Below are positions 10,317-28,113 of a stretch of 28,530 bases of DNA, in pieces. Each line of letters starts with the position of its first letter. The first letter of the stretch is position 1. Source of the DNA: Desulfuromonas sp. (GTDB lineage Bacteria > Desulfobacterota > Desulfuromonadia > Desulfuromonadales > SZUA-401); contig PKUI01000127.1 of assembly GCA_002869605.1 (NCBI GenBank), forward strand, positions 1-28,530, given 5' to 3'. The position numbers and the translations under genes were made by a program. The notes beneath the pieces were generated by a model that saw nothing but the letters and a program-made list of their open reading frames with translations, was not told where the DNA came from and searched no databases.

Positions 10317-12632
10317 CTACTGGTGGAGCGGAAGTTCGATCAGAACCTCGGTGTAGAGTCCCTCCTCGCTTTGAATTCGGATCTGGCCCTGATGATTTTT
10401 TATAATGTTTTCGATGATGCTCAGGCCAAGGCCGGTACCGGCACCGAGTTCCTTGGAGGTATAAAAGGTTTCGAAAATCTTCGGAAGCGTGTCTTTCGGG
10501 ATACCGACCCCGTGGTCTTTAAAGGAGATCAGAGCAAAACCGCCCTGAGAAGTTTCGTGGGTCCAGGCTGAAATTTCGATGACCTTCTCTTTGCAGGACT
10601 GGGGATATTTTTTGTTGAGAGCATACTGGGCATTGCTCAGAAGGTTCAGAAAAACCTGTTCGATTTCCTGTTCGTTGCAGAGGATTTTCGGCTCTCCGTC
10701 TATGGCTGTGGTGATCGAGATGCCGTCGTGTAAGAGGCTTTTTTCCGAGAGCGCTAGGGGCACCTGGAGCAGGTTGCGAACCGGGTGGCAGTTACGAACG
10801 CCTTCTTCCTTGCGCGAAAACGAGAGCAGGCGTTTCACGATCGTGGAGATGCGTTCTCCCTCCCTGATAATTTTTGTCCCCAGCTCAGCCAAAGAGGGGT
10901 CCTGAGAGGATTTTATGGTGATGATCTGAGCGTAGTTGATCACGCCATTAATCGGGTTATTGATTTCATGGGCGACGCCTGCGGAAAGTTCGCCCAGGGT
11001 TGCCAGCTGGGAGGAACGGATGGCTGTCGCCGTCAACTTTTTATTTTCATCATTGGTTCGCTTGCGGTGGATGGCAATGGCAAAAAGTTCCGCAAGGCGT
11101 TCGATCGCTTCCAGGTCTTGACGTGTATAGTCCTGTTCCGGGTTGGCCAAGGCAATCTGCCCGATGGTTTGCTGGTCGTACTTGACCGGAACGGAGAGGA
11201 AGCGGGTCACCGTGATGTGTCCTTCGGGAACTCCGAGGGCGTTAGGGTGTTTATCGGCGGTGTTCGAGAAGAAGGCCTCACCGGAGTTCAGGGTCTGCCC
11301 CAAGAGACCTGAAAAATGTCCGCCAGGGCCCGGTTTAAAGGCCAGTTTCTGGTCCGGGTCGCCGACCACGAGAGAGTCGTCCATCATTTTAGTGACTGTT
11401 TGCACAACGTTAAACGAGGTCAGAGGGTCGATTTCCGAGACAAAGCCGTGGGGACTTCGGGTCAACAGGCGCGCGCTGTCGAGGATGAGGGTTGAAACGT
11501 CTTCGAGTTTGTCGATCGGCGCGATCAGGGTGTTGGAAATGGTTGCGAGTTCGGTGTTGAGACGCACTTCCCAACGGAGCTGTTCTTCGGTTTTTTCCCG
11601 AATGGCAATGTCCTGCAGGAGATGCTTGCGCAGTTCGTTCTCCAGTTGGCTGGTGAACCATCCACGCATGGCGAGGAAAAAAGCAAAGATAAGTCCGTTG
11701 GCCAGGAGAAAATAGCGAGTTTCAGGGGTATCGGGTTGCGGAAAGATCAGGTAGGCGATCAGGATGCTGACGATGAAAAAAGCCGGCATGGCCGCTTCGG
11801 CCTTTTCGAGACCGTTGTTAGGCTGGGGCGACGTATTCTTCTGGCCGGTCTGGCTGTGCTCATGCTCGACGGCGGCCCAGTACTGCAGGAAGAAGGTAAT
11901 CAGCCAGTAGAGATTCAGGTAGCTCGTCGCTTCATAGGTTTGTCCCAGCAGCTGGAAAGCATAGAGGGTGTCGGTGACGGACATGACCAGCAGGGAGCTG
12001 AGCAGGAGTTGAAAACTGAGCTTGTTCTCCTCCCAGGTGAAGAACAGGTAACAATACGAACCAAAGAGGAAGCAGAAAACCGTAAGCTGTGAATGCAGTA
12101 GTGCGTAGAGCTCGTAGGTGTAGCTGTTGTCGGAAAGCCTCATCGGCTCGGCGAGAATCAGGTGACAGAGAAAAAGCACGCCGCAAATGATCAGGCCCAG
12201 GTTGGCGAGTTGGATGAACTTGTACTCGCGGATCTCCCGATCTGTGCGGTACTGAAACAGGCCGGCTGCGAAAAAGACCGCGTACCCCATGTAGAGCCAG
12301 TCACTCGTGCCGGGAAACGGCAACAGGGTGCGGGTAAACAGCTCGTGGTAATCCCAGACCAGCATGCCCAGAAACCAGGAGAGCGCTGCCATCCCGAAAA
12401 GGTTCCAGGCGCGTCGTGTTTGCCGAGAGCGGCTTTTTCGGGCGGTGCGCAGGCATCTTATGCCAGCCACCAGCGCAAACAGGGTCCAGAAAAAGTCAGA
12501 CCAGTAGTTTAGCGCGTTTCCTGCCAGAACGCCGCTGTACTCTCCCCACAGATAGACCAGGAAGATCACCATGCCCGCTGAAAGCAGCGTGATGCGCCGA
12601 CGAAGCGGCGAGGTGTTGGTCAGTACAGACAT
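10317..12632 (-). CDS. Membrane sensor histidine kinase with GAF domain
   Basis: 771 residues. The N-terminal third (about 10-325) has around eight to nine hydrophobic segments. Its motif WFLGMLVWDYHELF...PFPGTSDWLYMGY resembles the integral-membrane sensor regions found before GGDEF and kinase domains. A linker helix leads to a GAF domain (about 360-520). HisKA follows with the phospho-acceptor His555 in AGVAHEINNPINGVINYAQ, then a HATPase domain with an N box (EQVFLNLLSNAQYALNK), G1 DHGVGIPKD and G2 GAGTGLGLS. There is no receiver domain, so it needs a separate partner; the receiver gene 328 bases upstream is the obvious candidate. The ATG at 12632 has no good ribosome site. Its long leader carries a c-di-GMP-I riboswitch. 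Confidence 0.92.
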   Translation of the reverse strand: MSVLTNTSPLRRRITLLSAGMVIFLVYLWGEYSGVLAGNALNYWSDFFWTLFALVAGIRCLRTARKSRSRQTRRAWNLFGMAALSWFLGMLVWDYHELFTRTLLPFPGTSDWLYMGYAVFFAAGLFQYRTDREIREYKFIQLANLGLIICGVLFLCHLILAEPMRLSDNSYTYELYALLHSQLTVFCFLFGSYCYLFFTWEENKLSFQLLLSSLLVMSVTDTLYAFQLLGQTYEATSYLNLYWLITFFLQYWAAVEHEHSQTGQKNTSPQPNNGLEKAEAAMPAFFIVSILIAYLIFPQPDTPETRYFLLANGLIFAFFLAMRGWFTSQLENELRKHLLQDIAIREKTEEQLRWEVRLNTELATISNTLIAPIDKLEDVSTLILDSARLLTRSPHGFVSEIDPLTSFNVVQTVTKMMDDSLVVGDPDQKLAFKPGPGGHFSGLLGQTLNSGEAFFSNTADKHPNALGVPEGHITVTRFLSVPVKYDQQTIGQIALANPEQDYTRQDLEAIERLAELFAIAIHRKRTNDENKKLTATAIRSSQLATLGELSAGVAHEINNPINGVINYAQIITIKSSQDPSLAELGTKIIREGERISTIVKRLLSFSRKEEGVRNCHPVRNLLQVPLALSEKSLLHDGISITTAIDGEPKILCNEQEIEQVFLNLLSNAQYALNKKYPQSCKEKVIEISAWTHETSQGGFALISFKDHGVGIPKDTLPKIFETFYTSKELGAGTGLGLSIIENIIKNHQGQIRIQSEEGLYTEVLIELPLHQ

Positions 12633-12690
12633 GGCACATCGCCGGCGCTGAGGTTCTGGATCGATGACGCGAAGTCAGGGGGGCTGCGTG

Positions 12691-12718
12691 AAAAAAAAGC
12701 GTGCGAGGAACTGTTCCT
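12691..12718 (-). terminator. Possible terminator / expression platform of the riboswitch
   Basis: On the minus strand an AGGAA-CAG-TTCCT hairpin (12718-12706) is followed, after seven bases, by a run of eight T (12698-12691). It lies between the c-di-GMP riboswitch and the kinase start, where an expression platform is expected. The stem is short and the T-run is offset, so it is a weak intrinsic terminator unless additional outer pairing (CGT with ACG) forms. Assignment is tentative. Confidence 0.35.
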
Positions 12719-12797
12719 AGACGTGGGACAGCGGTCACCACAACTGTGGAGACACAAGCGGAAAGGAGCCTGGTTTTGAGAGGGCGTGATCATAATG

Positions 12798-12882
12798 ACT
12801 CTCTTCGGTGGCTGGGCGATCTGGTTTAAGACCCCTGGCTCTGCGTCCCCGGGTTACCCCGGGTTTGCTCTTATCGGAGAGT
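12798..12882 (-). promoter_or_regulatory. Cyclic di-GMP-I (GEMM-I) riboswitch
   Basis: Read on the minus strand, this 85-base segment has the parts of the GEMM-I aptamer. The closing stem is ACTCTC (12882-12877) paired with GAGAGT (12803-12798). GCAAACC is followed by a perfect CCCGGG-GTAA-CCCGGG hairpin (12863-12848) whose GTAA is a GNRA tetraloop. Directly after it comes GGGACGCAGAGCC, one base from the family consensus GGGACGCAAAGCC. The second arm is GGTCT, a TAAACC loop, AGATC, then GCCCAGCCACCGAAG, as in Geobacter-type members. GEMM-I RNAs bind cyclic di-GMP and control downstream genes. It lies 165 bases before the histidine kinase start, within the 327-base gap after the receiver gene, so the kinase is the likely target. 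Whether it turns expression on or off cannot be read securely. Confidence 0.9.
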
Positions 12883-12959
12883 GAAAGTGTTGGAGAAGGT
12901 TAGCAAAATACCTGATCCATGGAAAGGGATTAATTTTACGGGGTGGGGCGAGCGCGCCT

Positions 12960-13403
12960 TTATGCGATGCGCTTTTGCAGCTCGTCGAGCGGTGAGAGCT
13001 GTCGCTCCTGCGGGGTTCGACTCTGGATGGTTTGCAGAATGGTGTCGAGGTCTGCGAAGGTCAGGGGTTTTTGCAGAAGCTGGCACCCGAGTTGCTTGAC
13101 CCTTTCCTTGTCGACGGCATCGATGTTTCCCGAGACGATGAATTTGTTTTCGGTTGCACATTTGCAGCCGTTAGCCTGCATCTGCTCGATAAAGTCGAGA
13201 CCCGAAACCCGGGGCATGCTGAAATCGACGAGGAACAGGTCCCCGCAAGGGTAGGGATGGGTCCCGTCACAACGATAGTGAGAGGGGTCAGGAACAGTGA
13301 CGACCTCGTGCCCCTGCTCCTCCAGGTACCATTGGTAGGTCTCACGGATACACGGTTCGTCGTCGATAACCAGAATACGCAGTTTCAAGTGTTCCCCCGG
13401 CAT
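12960..13403 (-). CDS. Stand-alone response regulator receiver protein with Cys/His-rich loop
   Basis: 147 residues, a single receiver domain with no output domain. The acidic pocket is Asp14-Asp15 (VIDDEP), the phospho-acceptor is Asp60 (LFLVDFSMPRVSG), the switch Ser is Ser91 (IVSGN) and the conserved Lys is Lys112 (QKPL). An unusual loop before the Asp60 strand carries YRCDGTHPYPCGD (Cys45, His49, Cys53), and further cysteines occur at 18, 80, 82 and 107. Similar small receivers occur in Desulfuromonadia as far as I recall; their role is unknown. The ATG at 13403 has a weak ribosome site. A TTG at 13388 with GGGGG five bases upstream would give the more usual start KLRILVIDDEP and may be the true one. 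The gene starts 7 bases after the OmpA-like gene stop, so they are probably co-transcribed. Confidence 0.88.
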   Translation of the reverse strand: MPGEHLKLRILVIDDEPCIRETYQWYLEEQGHEVVTVPDPSHYRCDGTHPYPCGDLFLVDFSMPRVSGLDFIEQMQANGCKCATENKFIVSGNIDAVDKERVKQLGCQLLQKPLTFADLDTILQTIQSRTPQERQLSPLDELQKRIA

Positions 13404-13410
13404 GCGGCGC

Positions 13411-14028
13411 TTACTTCGGCGTCACCTTGATCTCCACGCGGCGGTTGACCTGGCGCCCATAGCTGGTGGAGTTGTCGGCGATCGGTGCGCTTTCGCCGAA
13501 GCCGAGCGTGGTAATACGTCCCTTGACGACCCCGTTGGCAATGAGCAGGGTGCGGACGGCGCCGGCGCGCTTGAGCGAGAGGTCCTGGTTGTAGTCTTCG
13601 CTGCCGCTGCTGTCGGTATGCCCGGCGACGGTGATGTTGGTCTTGTCGTACTCGGTGAAGATCTGTCCCAGGTGCGCGACATCGCTTTGGGAGCCGGTTT
13701 CCAGGGTGAAGCTGTTGACTTTGAACTGGTTGTCGGAGCGGAAGGTGATAAAGAGTTCATCGCCACTGCGTTCGATATTAACTCCTTCAACAGAGGCTAA
13801 CGCCTCGCGAACGGCAGCTTCCTGACGGTCCATGTAGTAGCCAATGCCGCTACCTACCGCTGCGCCGGCCGCTGCGCCGATCAGGGTGCTTTTGGTATCC
13901 TTGCCGATGGCCTGGCCGAGCAGCGCACCGCTGCCAGCACCGATCAGGGCTCCCTTGCCGGTGTTGTTCATGGCGCAGGCCGAAAGCAACAGCAGCGCGA
14001 GACTGAACAGAGTAAAACGCTTGAGCAT
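13411..14028 (-). CDS. OmpA-family outer-membrane lipoprotein
   Basis: 205 residues. Lipoprotein signal LLLLSAC with the lipid-bearing Cys18. A glycine-zipper segment follows (about 24-65; repeats such as GALIGAGSGALLGQAIG), then an OmpA-like peptidoglycan-binding domain (about 95-205) with the typical AGHTDSSGSEDYNQDLSLKRA and GFGES...NRRVEI motifs. It resembles YiaD-type proteins that tether the outer membrane to the cell wall. An AAAGGAG site lies eight bases before ATG 14028. It is the first gene of a minus-strand run with the receiver protein; whether it belongs to the signalling pathway or merely shares the transcript is unclear. Confidence 0.93.
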   Translation of the reverse strand: MLKRFTLFSLALLLLSACAMNNTGKGALIGAGSGALLGQAIGKDTKSTLIGAAAGAAVGSGIGYYMDRQEAAVREALASVEGVNIERSGDELFITFRSDNQFKVNSFTLETGSQSDVAHLGQIFTEYDKTNITVAGHTDSSGSEDYNQDLSLKRAGAVRTLLIANGVVKGRITTLGFGESAPIADNSTSYGRQVNRRVEIKVTPK

Positions 14029-22224: not shown

Positions 22225-22905
22225 CTAGGCCTCGTCTTTAAGCTCGGTCTTTAATTCCTTGGACAGGTCCAGGTAACTCAGGGCCGAAAGGTAGCTCTGA
22301 CGCTCCATCTGGCCGCCGATCTGCTGCAGCGCGGCTTTGACCAGATGGGAGCGGATCCGCTCCTTGATCTGTTCCTGATGCAGGCTGTAGACCACTCCCA
22401 CGATCATACTGCCGCTGTTGCGCGTCGGCACGCAGTAAACCACCCGCCCCTCGATCTTCAGGGGCGTCTTGCCGATGGGGATCTCCAGGGTGATCTCCTC
22501 GTCGCGTACCAATTCACGAAAAAACTCGAAGCGGATACCGGCATCCGAGAGGCTCACACTGACGAATTCGTCGTGGGCGCCCTTGTGGCGCAGGGTACCG
22601 CGTAAGCGTAGCGGCATGCGAAAATGTTGTCGTGGCGGGTCGAAGAGGTGGGTCTGCAGGGACAGCCACAATGATTCCAGCTTGAACGGCAGGGTAAGGG
22701 TTTCCGGTGCGTCGTTGCGGGGGAGAAGCGACAGGTGGGTGTCGCCGGCTGAGGCCTGTAGCTCAAGCATCTCCCGCCCCGGCAGGCACGGCTCGATGTC
22801 CCAGTGGCGGAGCAGTGCCTTGATCAGATCGTGAAGCTCCGGGATCGAGATCGATAGCGTGACGGTGCGGTTGGATGCCAGCGGAGAGTTTTTAAAAAAG
22901 GTCAT
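22225..22905 (-). CDS. PilZ-domain protein (probable c-di-GMP receptor, degenerate motif)
   Basis: 226 residues, soluble. The central part (about 90-190) fits a PilZ domain. An RxxxR motif is present as Arg92-Gln-His-Phe-Arg96, followed about 20 residues later by SLSDAG (118-123), in the place of the usual (D/N)xSxxG but with Ser for the Asp/Asn. A YcgR-like N-terminal half (about 15-88) precedes it. PilZ proteins bind cyclic di-GMP and regulate motility or surface traits; the substitution may weaken binding. It follows the SpoIIE-type phosphatase gene by 14 bases and is the last gene of a minus-strand run. The ATG at 22905 has only a modest upstream site. The call rests on the motif pattern and strand pattern rather than on close similarity. 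Confidence 0.78.
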   Translation of the reverse strand: MTFFKNSPLASNRTVTLSISIPELHDLIKALLRHWDIEPCLPGREMLELQASAGDTHLSLLPRNDAPETLTLPFKLESLWLSLQTHLFDPPRQHFRMPLRLRGTLRHKGAHDEFVSVSLSDAGIRFEFFRELVRDEEITLEIPIGKTPLKIEGRVVYCVPTRNSGSMIVGVVYSLHQEQIKERIRSHLVKAALQQIGGQMERQSYLSALSYLDLSKELKTELKDEA

Positions 22906-22919
22906 GGTCTTCCCGTGTC

Positions 22920-23666
22920 TCAGTGGCAGAAATCGACAACGATAGCAGTGCAGTCGTCTTCAACGGTTTCTCCGACTACAAACGCTTCGAGATCGTCGAA
23001 CAGGGCGTCGACAAACGCAACATGGTCTCCGGAGTAGGAGGTCAGGAATGAGCACAACCGTTTTTCTCCGTACAGTTGCCCCTGGCTGTTGGTGGTCTCG
23101 GTCGCCCCGTCGGTATAAAGCAGCAGGCGGTCTCCCTTGGCGAAGTGAAAAGAGTGCAATTCCATCTCCGGGTTGTCGAAGAAGCCCATGGGGGGTGAGG
23201 TGGGAGTAAGGCGTGTGATTTCCTCGCCCCGCTTGATCAACGGCGGTACGTGACCGGCGTTGATATAGTGACAGACCAGCGATTCAGGGTCGATGATTGC
23301 GTAAAACAGGGTGGTCGAGAAGTGGTGATCGAGGCGCTGAGAGCGTTCGGCGAAGGTGCGTAAAAAGGCGTTGACCCGGGTCATCATCTCCAGGGGGGCG
23401 CAGCCACCGGTGGAAGAGTGATGGATAAACCCGTAGAGCAGCGCCATGACCACCGAAGCGTGGAGGCCGTGGCCGGTGACGTCACCGATGAAGATCGCCA
23501 GGCAATCGTCCGGCATCGACAGGAATTCAAAGTAATCGCCGCCGAGGTCGTGGGCCATGCGGTTGCGTACCGCCAGGCAGTACCAGTCGCAGAAGGGCGA
23601 GGTTTTTGGCAACAACAGCTGCTGGACTTCGCGTGCGAGGGTGTATTCGGTCTCGTGGTTGATCAC
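22920..23666 (-). CDS. SpoIIE/RsbU-type PP2C serine phosphatase
   Basis: 248 residues: a PP2C-like phosphatase domain almost alone, without a sensor domain. Metal-binding motifs are present: GGDYFEF (Asp44), IGDVTGHGLHASVVMALL (61 onward), LLLYTDGATETTN and the final EDDCTAIVVDF. Members dephosphorylate anti-sigma-factor antagonists in partner-switching pathways, but no anti-sigma or STAS gene is in the window. The start is GTG 23666, preceded by GGAGG at a spacing of ten; no ATG fits. It lies 38 bases after ttcA and 14 before the PilZ gene, so it may share a transcript with both. Confidence 0.92.
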   Translation of the reverse strand: MINHETEYTLAREVQQLLLPKTSPFCDWYCLAVRNRMAHDLGGDYFEFLSMPDDCLAIFIGDVTGHGLHASVVMALLYGFIHHSSTGGCAPLEMMTRVNAFLRTFAERSQRLDHHFSTTLFYAIIDPESLVCHYINAGHVPPLIKRGEEITRLTPTSPPMGFFDNPEMELHSFHFAKGDRLLLYTDGATETTNSQGQLYGEKRLCSFLTSYSGDHVAFVDALFDDLEAFVVGETVEDDCTAIVVDFCH

Positions 23667-26512: not shown

Positions 26513-26640
26513 CATGTTGCAACAAGCGAAGATATGGATTAATATACATTTTTTTGGCATTTTTCAGGGACTTGCCAGATTAACCACTGGCAATGTTTAT
26601 ATACTTAAAGAAACGGAAAATTAGTGGAGGTTGCAACATG
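26513..26640. repeat. Inverted repeat pair and hairpin around the caspase-like gene's 5' region
   Basis: CATGTTGCAAC (26513-26523) and its exact reverse complement GTTGCAACATG (26630-26640) flank the gap; each holds the 8-base palindrome GTTGCAAC. The right arm covers the ribosome-site spacer and the ATG at 26638. Between them lies a TTGCCAG (26572-26578)/CTGGCAA (26587-26593) hairpin with an 8-base loop and no T-run. The pair could be two copies of a regulator site, or could pair in RNA if transcription starts upstream. Confidence 0.55.
26517..26545 (+). promoter_or_regulatory. Candidate sigma-70 promoter of the caspase-like gene
   Basis: TTGCAA (26517-26522) and TAATAT (26540-26545) with a 17-base spacer, each four of six to consensus, in an AT-rich stretch 92 bases before the start codon. 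The -35 lies inside the left arm of an 11-bp inverted repeat. Pattern-based only. Confidence 0.4.
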
Positions 26641-28113
26641 TTGAAGCAGAAGTGGTGGATTGGAATCGCCGTTTTGTTGATGTGGGTAACGCCGAGTTTT
26701 GCCAAGGATTCGTGTAGTGCGATTGTGATCGCCGAGGCAACCATGATCAGGGATGGCTCCTCGCGGTACCACGCGTGGATGTCTTTCAACGGCTCGACAA
26801 CGCCTGAAGTGAACGGGAAGACGGTTTTTGTCTTCAATAATCTGACTGGGAAAAACAAGCTGCAAATGAAGGTTGGCTCGTCGACCACCGCTACGAAAAA
26901 GTTCTCGTGTGACGAGAGCTCGGTGAATTTTTTTGAATTTCAAAGCTTCCAGTTTGCGTTCAAGAGGATCGACGAAGAGCGCGCAAGGGCACTTGTCGAT
27001 TCGCTGAAGCGGATTTACAAGCGGGCCAAGTTTTTCCGCTTCGAAGGTGGGGATCTCGAAAAATATAACGAGAAGCTGCTGTATTCGGGGAATGCCCTGG
27101 CGACGATCTACAGCGAGCTGAACGTGGGTGGCAACGCCGGCACCCAACTTGCCGCGAAACCGGCCGCCCCCAAGACCCCTCCCGCGGTGGCCGTCACTCT
27201 GGTTCCGCCGACGCCTCAACCGGTGCTTAGAGCGGCTCCCAAAGCGGCTCCCAAACCGGCGCCCAAAGCGGCTCCCAAAGCGGCTCCCAAAGCGGCTCCC
27301 AAAGCGACGGCGGTCGAGACCAACCGCTACGGGGTGGCTGTGATCATCGGTAACCGTGACTATGCGAGCCACAATGGTGACGTCCCCAATGTCGATTTTG
27401 CGCACAACGATGCCGACGCGGTCTATCGCTATGTTACCGAAAACCTGGGATTCCGCGAGGGGAACATCATTTTGCTCAAGGATGCCACCCAAGCTGAATT
27501 GGTAGGCACCTTCGGCGGGGCCAACAACGCCAAGGGCAAGCTGTTCGACTGGGTACGCGCTGGCAAGTCGGATGTATTTGTCTACTATTCGGGGCACGGA
27601 GCCCCTGGCCTCTCCGATGGCCAAGGCTACATTCTGCCGGTCGACAGCAATCCCAACAAGGTCGAGCTCAACGGTTACCCGCTCAAAACCTTGTATGCGA
27701 ACCTTGCCAAGGTTCCGTCCAAGAGCATGACCATCGTCATGGATGCCTGTTTTTCGGGAGCCTCCTCGGGGGGGAGTGTGGTCCAGAATGCCTCGTCGAT
27801 TGCCCTGCGCAGGGTTGAGAACAATCAGGAGATGCCGAATGCGTCCATCTTTACCGCGACCGGCCTCTCCGAGGTTGCGAGCTGGGACCAGGAGCAGAAG
27901 ATGGGGCTGTTCACCCACCACTTCCTCGAGGGAGTGCGTGGCAAGGCCGACGCCAAGGGCTACTTCGGTAATGGTGACGGCAAGGTGACGGTAGGCGAAC
28001 TCAAGGAGTACTTGGCGGAAGAGGTGACCTACAGGGCGCGGCGCATCTATGGACGCAACCAGAATCCGCAGATCTCGGGTCAGGACAACGAGGTATTGGT
28101 TGATCTGAAATAA
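26638..28113 (+). CDS. Exported caspase-like (peptidase C14) protein with Ala-Pro-Lys linker
   Basis: 491 residues from ATG 26638, with GGAGG seven bases upstream. Signal peptide 1-22 (LKQKWWIGIAVLLMWVTPSFA). Residues 23-165 form an unrecognised extracytoplasmic domain. A linker (about 170-226) is rich in Ala, Pro and Lys, with AAPK repeats. A caspase-type domain follows (about 231-491): YGVAVIIGNRDYAS, the catalytic pair His320 (VYYSGHGA) and Cys371 (MDACFSGASSGG), and a C-terminal GNGDGKVTVGELKEYL block resembling a calcium-binding EF loop. Orthocaspases cleave after basic residues; the substrate here is unknown. The gene stands alone and is closed by a strong terminator. The export signal places the protease outside the cytoplasm. 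Confidence 0.93.
   Translation: MLKQKWWIGIAVLLMWVTPSFAKDSCSAIVIAEATMIRDGSSRYHAWMSFNGSTTPEVNGKTVFVFNNLTGKNKLQMKVGSSTTATKKFSCDESSVNFFEFQSFQFAFKRIDEERARALVDSLKRIYKRAKFFRFEGGDLEKYNEKLLYSGNALATIYSELNVGGNAGTQLAAKPAAPKTPPAVAVTLVPPTPQPVLRAAPKAAPKPAPKAAPKAAPKAAPKATAVETNRYGVAVIIGNRDYASHNGDVPNVDFAHNDADAVYRYVTENLGFREGNIILLKDATQAELVGTFGGANNAKGKLFDWVRAGKSDVFVYYSGHGAPGLSDGQGYILPVDSNPNKVELNGYPLKTLYANLAKVPSKSMTIVMDACFSGASSGGSVVQNASSIALRRVENNQEMPNASIFTATGLSEVASWDQEQKMGLFTHHFLEGVRGKADAKGYFGNGDGKVTVGELKEYLAEEVTYRARRIYGRNQNPQISGQDNEVLVDLK
27229..27306 (+). repeat. 12-base tandem repeat encoding AAPK units
   Basis: Six and a half copies of the 12-base unit AAAGCGGCTCCC (first and third copies diverged), inside the caspase-like gene's linker. 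Each unit adds Lys-Ala-Ala-Pro, so copy-number change keeps the frame and only alters linker length. Identical neighbouring units suggest recent slippage or unequal exchange. Confidence 0.9.

Follow-up and report, generated by a model that had tools for sequence, protein, structure and literature searches.

A GEMM-I riboswitch aptamer with adenine at the selectivity position, most likely a cGAMP sensor, lies ahead of a membrane sensor kinase gene in Desulfuromonas

A riboswitch in front of a sensor kinase gene raises two questions: which second messenger does it read, and does that messenger raise or lower the amount of the kinase? Both are posed by a locus of Desulfuromonas sp. (contig PKUI01000127.1), analyzed here as a stretch of 28,530 nucleotides (nt) that we call the window. 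On its minus strand, the leader of a gene for a membrane sensor histidine kinase contains a GEMM-I aptamer. An earlier sequence-only reading had taken the aptamer for a cyclic di-GMP (c-di-GMP) riboswitch. The explanation that we favor, to which as a whole we give about an even chance, is that a GEMM-I riboswitch of the 3′,3′-cyclic GMP-AMP type (cGAMP, also called c-AMP-GMP), with A20, A47 and C92, lies on a transcript of its own and tunes the amount of the sensor kinase with OFF logic.

In a covariance-model scan of the window, positions 12879-12804 (minus strand) matched RF01051 (c-di-GMP-I) over the complete model (1-87) with 55.1 bits, above the gathering score of 35 (E 2.2e-8), which places the element in the GEMM-I family; no other family reached its gathering score. 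The closing stem P1, which extends beyond the RF01051 match, pairs 12882-12877 with 12803-12798 (ACTCTC/GAGAGT) and also 12876-12875 with 12807-12806. GCAAACC, the GTAA tetraloop, GGGACGCAGAGCC and CACCGAAG were each found in the aptamer sequence. The sequence-only reading had described a complete GEMM-I architecture on this strand and had proposed the RF01051 scan as a check; the full-length match above threshold and the presence of all the named motifs bear it out, and the 165 bases that it counted from P1 to the kinase are indeed the distance between 12798 and the kinase ATG at 12632. It was also right about the gene: open reading frame (ORF) 10317-12632 has a hydrophobic N-terminal region and Pfam matches to GAF, HisKA (52.4 bits, cut-off 26.9) and HATPase_c (73 bits, cut-off 26.4). 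Thus, the riboswitch aptamer ahead of the kinase gene is a real feature.

The c-di-GMP-I name of RF01051 does not by itself settle the ligand. Vc2 numbering was mapped onto the aptamer from contact lists quoted in PMC7288161 and PMC6274999 (here and below, PMC numbers refer to excerpts of the papers). The selectivity base, the equivalent of Vc2 G20, sits just 5′ of GC in GCAAA. In the window aptamer this base is A (12869), not the G of c-di-GMP-selective aptamers, and the alignment gives A at position 47 and C at position 92, so that all three bases of the cGAMP type are present. When three homologous aptamers of Desulfobacca acetoxidans were subjected to in-line probing, two strongly preferred c-di-GMP, and the third, which has A as the base change associated with c-AMP-GMP, bound c-AMP-GMP markedly better, with perhaps a slight loss of c-di-GMP binding (PMC9481103). 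The G20A form of GEMM-I is tabulated as a c-AMP-GMP sensor (PMC11352751), and the G20 equivalent is called a selectivity factor, and not a hard filter (PMC9262584). The earlier naming of c-di-GMP as the ligand is therefore not upheld, since the selectivity base is in the state tied to c-AMP-GMP sensing (PMC9481103, PMC9262584).

A cGAMP switch presupposes a source of cGAMP, and relatives of the window organism were searched for one. As relatives we used the order of genome G001 (Desulfuromonadales, 136 genomes), in which the GatB protein of the window is matched with up to 80% identity; the synthase counts that follow thus come from the genomes of relatives and not from the window organism's own. 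GGDEF matches numbered 13 in G001 and 17 in G134, and two in each genome combined GGDEF with GHxxGS, which we take to be the motif around the serine of Hypr-type enzymes. A GacA-like ortholog, that is, a Hypr GGDEF protein making cGAMP, was found in 118 of the 136 genomes (best match of at least 172 bits, with the next group at 164 or below), and all 30 GacA-like loci that were checked had the serine together with GGDEF or GGDEY. The canonical Geobacter core, ACUAAACC...GCGGAAAGCC (C21-G46, U22-G45), presumably that of Gs1761, is present in 112/277 genomes of the class, in 10/136 of the order and in neither G001 nor G134. Cores with A20 and GCAAA were found in 123/277 genomes and those with G20 and GCAAA in 195/277, some of each by chance. 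Since the canonical core is rare in the order and absent from G001 and G134, the A20/GCAAA class suggests itself as the candidate receptor in these genomes. As to the synthase itself, the Hypr signature is Ser348, and the base is also contacted by Asn339 (PMC6456294). One REC-GGDEF protein (L197) had as its best PDB match 6d9m (190 bits, versus 134 for PleD), an entry in which a "Response receiver sensor diguanylate cyclase" is fused to an endolysin, and which we infer to be the GacA construct from the T4-lysozyme-GacA crystal described in PMC6456294. Sixteen GEMM riboswitches for c-di-GMP or c-AMP-GMP have been predicted in Desulfuromonas soudanensis (PMC4914508).

Among the matches listed, A20 cores were present in 71/118 genomes with a GacA-like ortholog and in 2/18 without one; five genomes whose single listed match had non-pairing P2 arms were scored as lacking A20, a filter that was not applied to G20. 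As proof of the ligand this co-occurrence was rejected: G20 aptamers show the same trend, and the association of A20 with Hypr enzymes is therefore confounded.

An ordinary c-di-GMP-I riboswitch, which senses c-di-GMP in the cell despite A20 and thereby controls the kinase, seems to us rather unlikely. The rest of the core is of the c-di-GMP type (GCAAA...GACGCA, G21-C46), the expression platform is of a type common to A20 and G20 relatives, and the same two published points, the perhaps slight loss of c-di-GMP affinity in the A variant (PMC9481103) and the absence of a hard filter at base 20 (PMC9262584), would leave room for it; what counts against it is the A itself, as the state linked to c-AMP-GMP sensing (PMC9481103), and the GacA-like synthase encoded in most genomes of the order. 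Because of this base and this synthase, cGAMP, perhaps together with c-di-GMP, is a likelier ligand than c-di-GMP alone, and, judged by the alignment, the window aptamer most likely senses cGAMP and possibly c-di-GMP too. G001 also has a GEMM-I aptamer with U at position 20 (CAGUGCAAAGCC; L084, G001:C409:3581-3670, and L144).

The direction of control was approached through the expression platforms of relatives. The A20 set consisted of 72 distinct pattern matches from 72 loci (L137, L138, L149-L178, L209-L248), a part of all matches, in which L156, L171 and L172 are suspected chance matches. By strict rules 52 loci were analyzable, 4 lacking a 3′ end that could be aligned and 16 lacking a clean terminator; by looser rules a hairpin precedes a T-rich tract in 68/72. 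Of the 52 A20/GCAAA loci, 49 have a terminator that stands apart from the aptamer. For 23 of these 49 terminators, complementarity of the 5′ arm to the aptamer 3′ strand reached p ≤ 0.05, with about 2.5 expected, in a test on the 3′ strand alone that replaced a broader linker statistic and was chosen after the broad result had been seen. Among G20 relatives (18 analyzed of 31), 12 of 17 separate terminators were complementary at the same level. Loci with the canonical core served as a control (37 matches, 31 analyzable), and in 29/31 of them the aptamer 3′ strand contains the 5′ arm of the terminator. The difference between separate and overlapping terminators is large (Fisher p about 1e-16), and opposite signs are thus predicted for the two A20 classes, OFF for the separate and ON for the overlapping arrangement.

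We therefore read the window by its class, conditionally at each step. The riboswitch would start its own transcript, apart from the upstream receiver gene, and cGAMP, possibly together with c-di-GMP, would bind the aptamer. As is often possible in the class, the aptamer 3′ strand would have two alternative pairing partners, P1 and the 5′ arm of a separate terminator downstream; ligand binding would thus free the terminator, and kinase expression would fall. Both the binding of cGAMP and transcriptional action through the leader hairpin and the T8 run are what we infer for this locus. That cGAMP instead acts as in Geobacter, blocking termination so that kinase synthesis rises, is distinctly unlikely in our estimate. 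It has precedents: all genes behind GEMM-Ib riboswitches fell upon gacA deletion in G. sulfurreducens (PMC6456294), and ON behavior was predicted by its authors for the A20 switch of D. acetoxidans (PMC9481103). The overlapping terminator of the canonical class matches the mutually exclusive ON design described for pilM (PMC9262584) and fits the ON behavior of the Geobacter genes (PMC6456294); in the window, however, the 3′ strand does not double as a terminator 5′ arm as it does in canonical aptamers, the candidate hairpin (12741-12699) lying outside the aptamer, and the T8 run starts 171 nt past A20, in a class whose terminators are separate.

The leader of the window itself (Table 1) was then compared with this scheme. 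A simple scan found no terminator on the minus strand, and a looser search gave the single imperfect hairpin at 12741-12699 (−13.4 kcal/mol), followed by the T8 run. The T8 and short hairpin that the sequence-only reading had placed between aptamer and gene are thus present in part as described, the T8 at 12698-12691 being clear and the hairpin weak and imperfect; its coupling to the aptamer is only predicted. When the aptamer was forced in the fold, the probability of the inner terminator stem rose from about 0.41 to about 0.78. Fold-based proof of switching in the window was rejected, as the outer stem shows no ligand-dependent formation. Complementarity between the P1 3′ strand and the downstream CUCUC, in the window alone, is within chance (p 0.06-0.19, depending on the choice of strand). 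The earlier caution that the direction of control lacks direct support was justified. Neither competing pairing exceeds chance in the window, and the direction is therefore taken from the class. Direction is the least certain step: OFF logic is favored for the window only moderately, because its own terminator is weak and a competing pairing cannot be demonstrated in this leader.

Several results weigh against the explanation that we favor. The window aptamer has AGCAAACC...GACGCAGAGCC in place of the canonical core, and thus lacks the C21-G46 and U22-G45 pairs of the canonical cGAMP class. G20 cores follow the presence of Hypr enzymes as closely as A20 cores do (96/118 versus 5/18), and the G20 class has the same platform as the A20 class, so that the platform says nothing on the ligand. 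The in vivo results on cGAMP riboswitches in PMC6456294 are ON. The window hairpin is weak, with a weaker one in just 7 of the 68 relatives that have a hairpin; its outer stem is improbable in both free and aptamer-forced folds, and complementarity between the aptamer 3′ strand and its 5′ arm is not significant in the window (p 0.17-0.52). The broad statistic (whole linker versus terminator arm) gave a mean z of −0.47 in relatives, with z below −2 in 6/54. Finally, the null for complementarity shuffles single letters only, and part of the signal may stem from UUCG loops of the terminators.

Some of these points would also suit an intact aptamer whose platform has decayed or acts otherwise, for example on translation through a small ORF (12793-12620), so that transcription of the kinase gene is hardly regulated. 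The weak hairpin would suit it, as would two observations by eye: CACGCCCUCUC looks like a 5′ arm of the relatives' terminators without its 3′ arm, and there is no Shine-Dalgarno sequence ahead of the kinase ATG. We consider it quite improbable. The complete aptamer, the T8 run at its distance from A20 and the hairpins with T-rich tracts found in nearly all class members make a neutral leader less likely, and the accessibility of the kinase start was unmoved by forcing the aptamer (0.485 versus 0.487), which speaks against direct translational control. The 57-codon putative ORF at 12620-12793 (minus strand) could couple translation.

Table 1. Position and basis of features in the kinase leader and of adjacent genes in the window
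Feature	Position	Strand	Basis
GEMM-I aptamer including P1 (ACTCTC/GAGAGT)	12798..12882	-	RF01051, 55.1 bits; fold −30.4 kcal/mol
A at the Vc2 G20 equivalent (Rfam column 11), ligand-selectivity base	12869	-	RF01051 alignment; numbering from contacts in PMC7288161 and from PMC9262584 (excerpts)
Alternative hairpin GAGAG:CUCUC, excludes P1	12778..12803	-	pair probability about 0.85, unconstrained fold
Imperfect hairpin just before the T run, candidate terminator stem, −13.4 kcal/mol	12699..12741	-	looser hairpin search
T8 run	12691..12698	-	read in sequence; start 171 nt past A20
Putative promoter for riboswitch and kinase: TTTCCA (12925-12920), 17 nt, extended −10 TGC-TAACCT (12905-12897)	12897..12925	-	by eye; weak
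Putative small ORF, 57 codons, beginning just past P1 and the aptamer, 13-nt overlap with the kinase start codon	12620..12793	-	read from sequence
Membrane sensor histidine kinase, 771 amino acids: N-terminal membrane module, GAF, HisKA, HATPase_c	10317..12632	-	Pfam; hydropathy
Stand-alone response-regulator receiver, 147 amino acids, upstream of the aptamer	12960..13403	-	Pfam PF00072
YiaD-type OmpA lipoprotein, upstream of the receiver	13411..14028	-	NCBIfam NF053611, 221.1 bits, cut-off 175

Whether the riboswitch and the kinase share a transcript apart from the receiver gene depends on a promoter ahead of the aptamer. A consensus scan found none. The weak candidate in Table 1 was picked by eye, and GCTA occurs 34-41 nt before A20 in 9/72 relatives, compared with 0-3 in five other stretches of equal width, the distance in the window being 35. 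If real, this promoter would place the transcript start immediately ahead of P1, with the kinase and the receiver gene on different transcripts. On this thin evidence from sequence, the riboswitch-kinase unit probably has a transcript of its own, and the receiver is a possible partner of the kinase outside the aptamer's transcript.

The sequence-only reading had singled out the link between a kinase and a cyclic dinucleotide as noteworthy. The aptamer before a kinase gene stands but is less exceptional than was suggested, as the arrangement is alike at L168, L169, L217 and L136 and before several receivers. Within the order, the window receiver is closest to that of L141 (50%), which stands directly behind an A20 aptamer, and further homologs of this receiver family lie behind A20 aptamers (L226, L227) and G20 aptamers (L110/L140, L142, L143, L136). 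At L136 the receiver is followed by a second aptamer and a kinase homolog, that is, a kinase-domain gene behind a G-type aptamer. Out of 67 first ORFs behind A20 matches, ten were picked by eye for a domain scan: kinase domains were present at L150, L168 (truncated by the end of the locus), L169 (HATPase only) and L217, receivers at L152, L162, L177, L235 and L241, and a GGDEF protein at L245. Rfam confirmed the A20 aptamers before the kinase genes of L168 (57.0 bits), L169 (65.2, as RF03167) and L217 (45.4, RF01051), L150 lying outside that scan. In this order such aptamers thus repeatedly stand ahead of kinase and receiver genes, and the window adds one more case, a variant of a familiar arrangement.

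Several details of these loci are worth recording. The two GEMM-I aptamers of L136 (1322-1396 and 2177-2254) are about 780 bases apart, one ahead of the receiver and the other ahead of the kinase homolog. The kinase-linked A20 aptamer of L217 ends in AGTTAAAGAAG at its 3′ end instead of the usual CCGAAG and is perhaps decaying. Several of the stand-alone receivers (12960-13403, L141, L226, L227, L140, L142, L143, L136) show, by eye, a Cys-rich stretch before the phospho-acceptor region. The N-terminal membrane module of the window kinase (11598-12632, minus strand, about 340 amino acids) has no Pfam name; it also caps kinases of 575-599 amino acids and GGDEF proteins, P0011 among them (42-50% identity), and, by these matches, looks like an unnamed exchangeable sensor domain. 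A search run without a positive control found the module in 0/136 genomes of the order. Elsewhere in the window, a SpoIIE-type phosphatase gene is followed after 14 bases by a PilZ-domain gene (22225-23666, minus strand), and 26593-28113 (plus strand) encodes a protein that has a caspase domain (Peptidase_C14), a PKAA-rich linker and what looks by eye like a signal peptide.

Taken beyond the single locus, the comparison leads to a proposal that is tentative and, as a whole, rather unlikely: in Desulfuromonadales and relatives, a large A20/GCAAA class would sense cGAMP through an OFF platform common with c-di-GMP switches, opposite to the ON logic of Geobacter, and at the present locus less of a membrane sensor kinase would be made when cGAMP is present, the messenger thereby setting two-component sensitivity. 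A candidate cGAMP class with OFF-type platforms is the wider point and weighs more than the single window locus: if the class does use cGAMP with OFF logic, the sign of one and the same signal would be reversed between related metal-respiring lineages. For the locus itself, a two-component sensor is placed under cyclic-dinucleotide control, a link that recurs for receivers and kinases in the order, and taking the Rfam name for the ligand could link the wrong second messenger to this gene and to many like it in the order. A literature search that did not extend to the founding 2015 papers returned nothing on this locus, on kinases as targets of cGAMP riboswitches or on OFF-type cGAMP riboswitches, an absence that carries little weight.

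Compared with known systems, the window aptamer resembles the Vc2-type c-di-GMP-I riboswitch (GEMM-I, RF01051) in its full covariance-model match, its GNRA tetraloop and its core apart from position 20, and differs from it in having A, not G, at the selectivity position. The A20 c-AMP-GMP riboswitch of D. acetoxidans, likened here by its description in PMC9481103, is also a c-di-GMP-I-like aptamer with A as the key pocket base; it belongs to a tandem whose other member is an AdoCbl riboswitch, and its authors predicted it to be ON, whereas the window has a single aptamer before a kinase gene. The canonical Geobacter GEMM-Ib riboswitches for cGAMP (Gs1761, pilM) share A at position 20 and C at 92 with the window aptamer; unlike it, they have the canonical core and a terminator that uses the aptamer 3′ strand, the terminator of the window being separate. 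Similar in arrangement are loci of the same order in which an A20 aptamer likewise precedes a two-component gene, for a receiver or a kinase (L141, L168, L169, L217, L226 and L227); in the window the aptamer has the receiver gene on one side and the kinase gene on the other.

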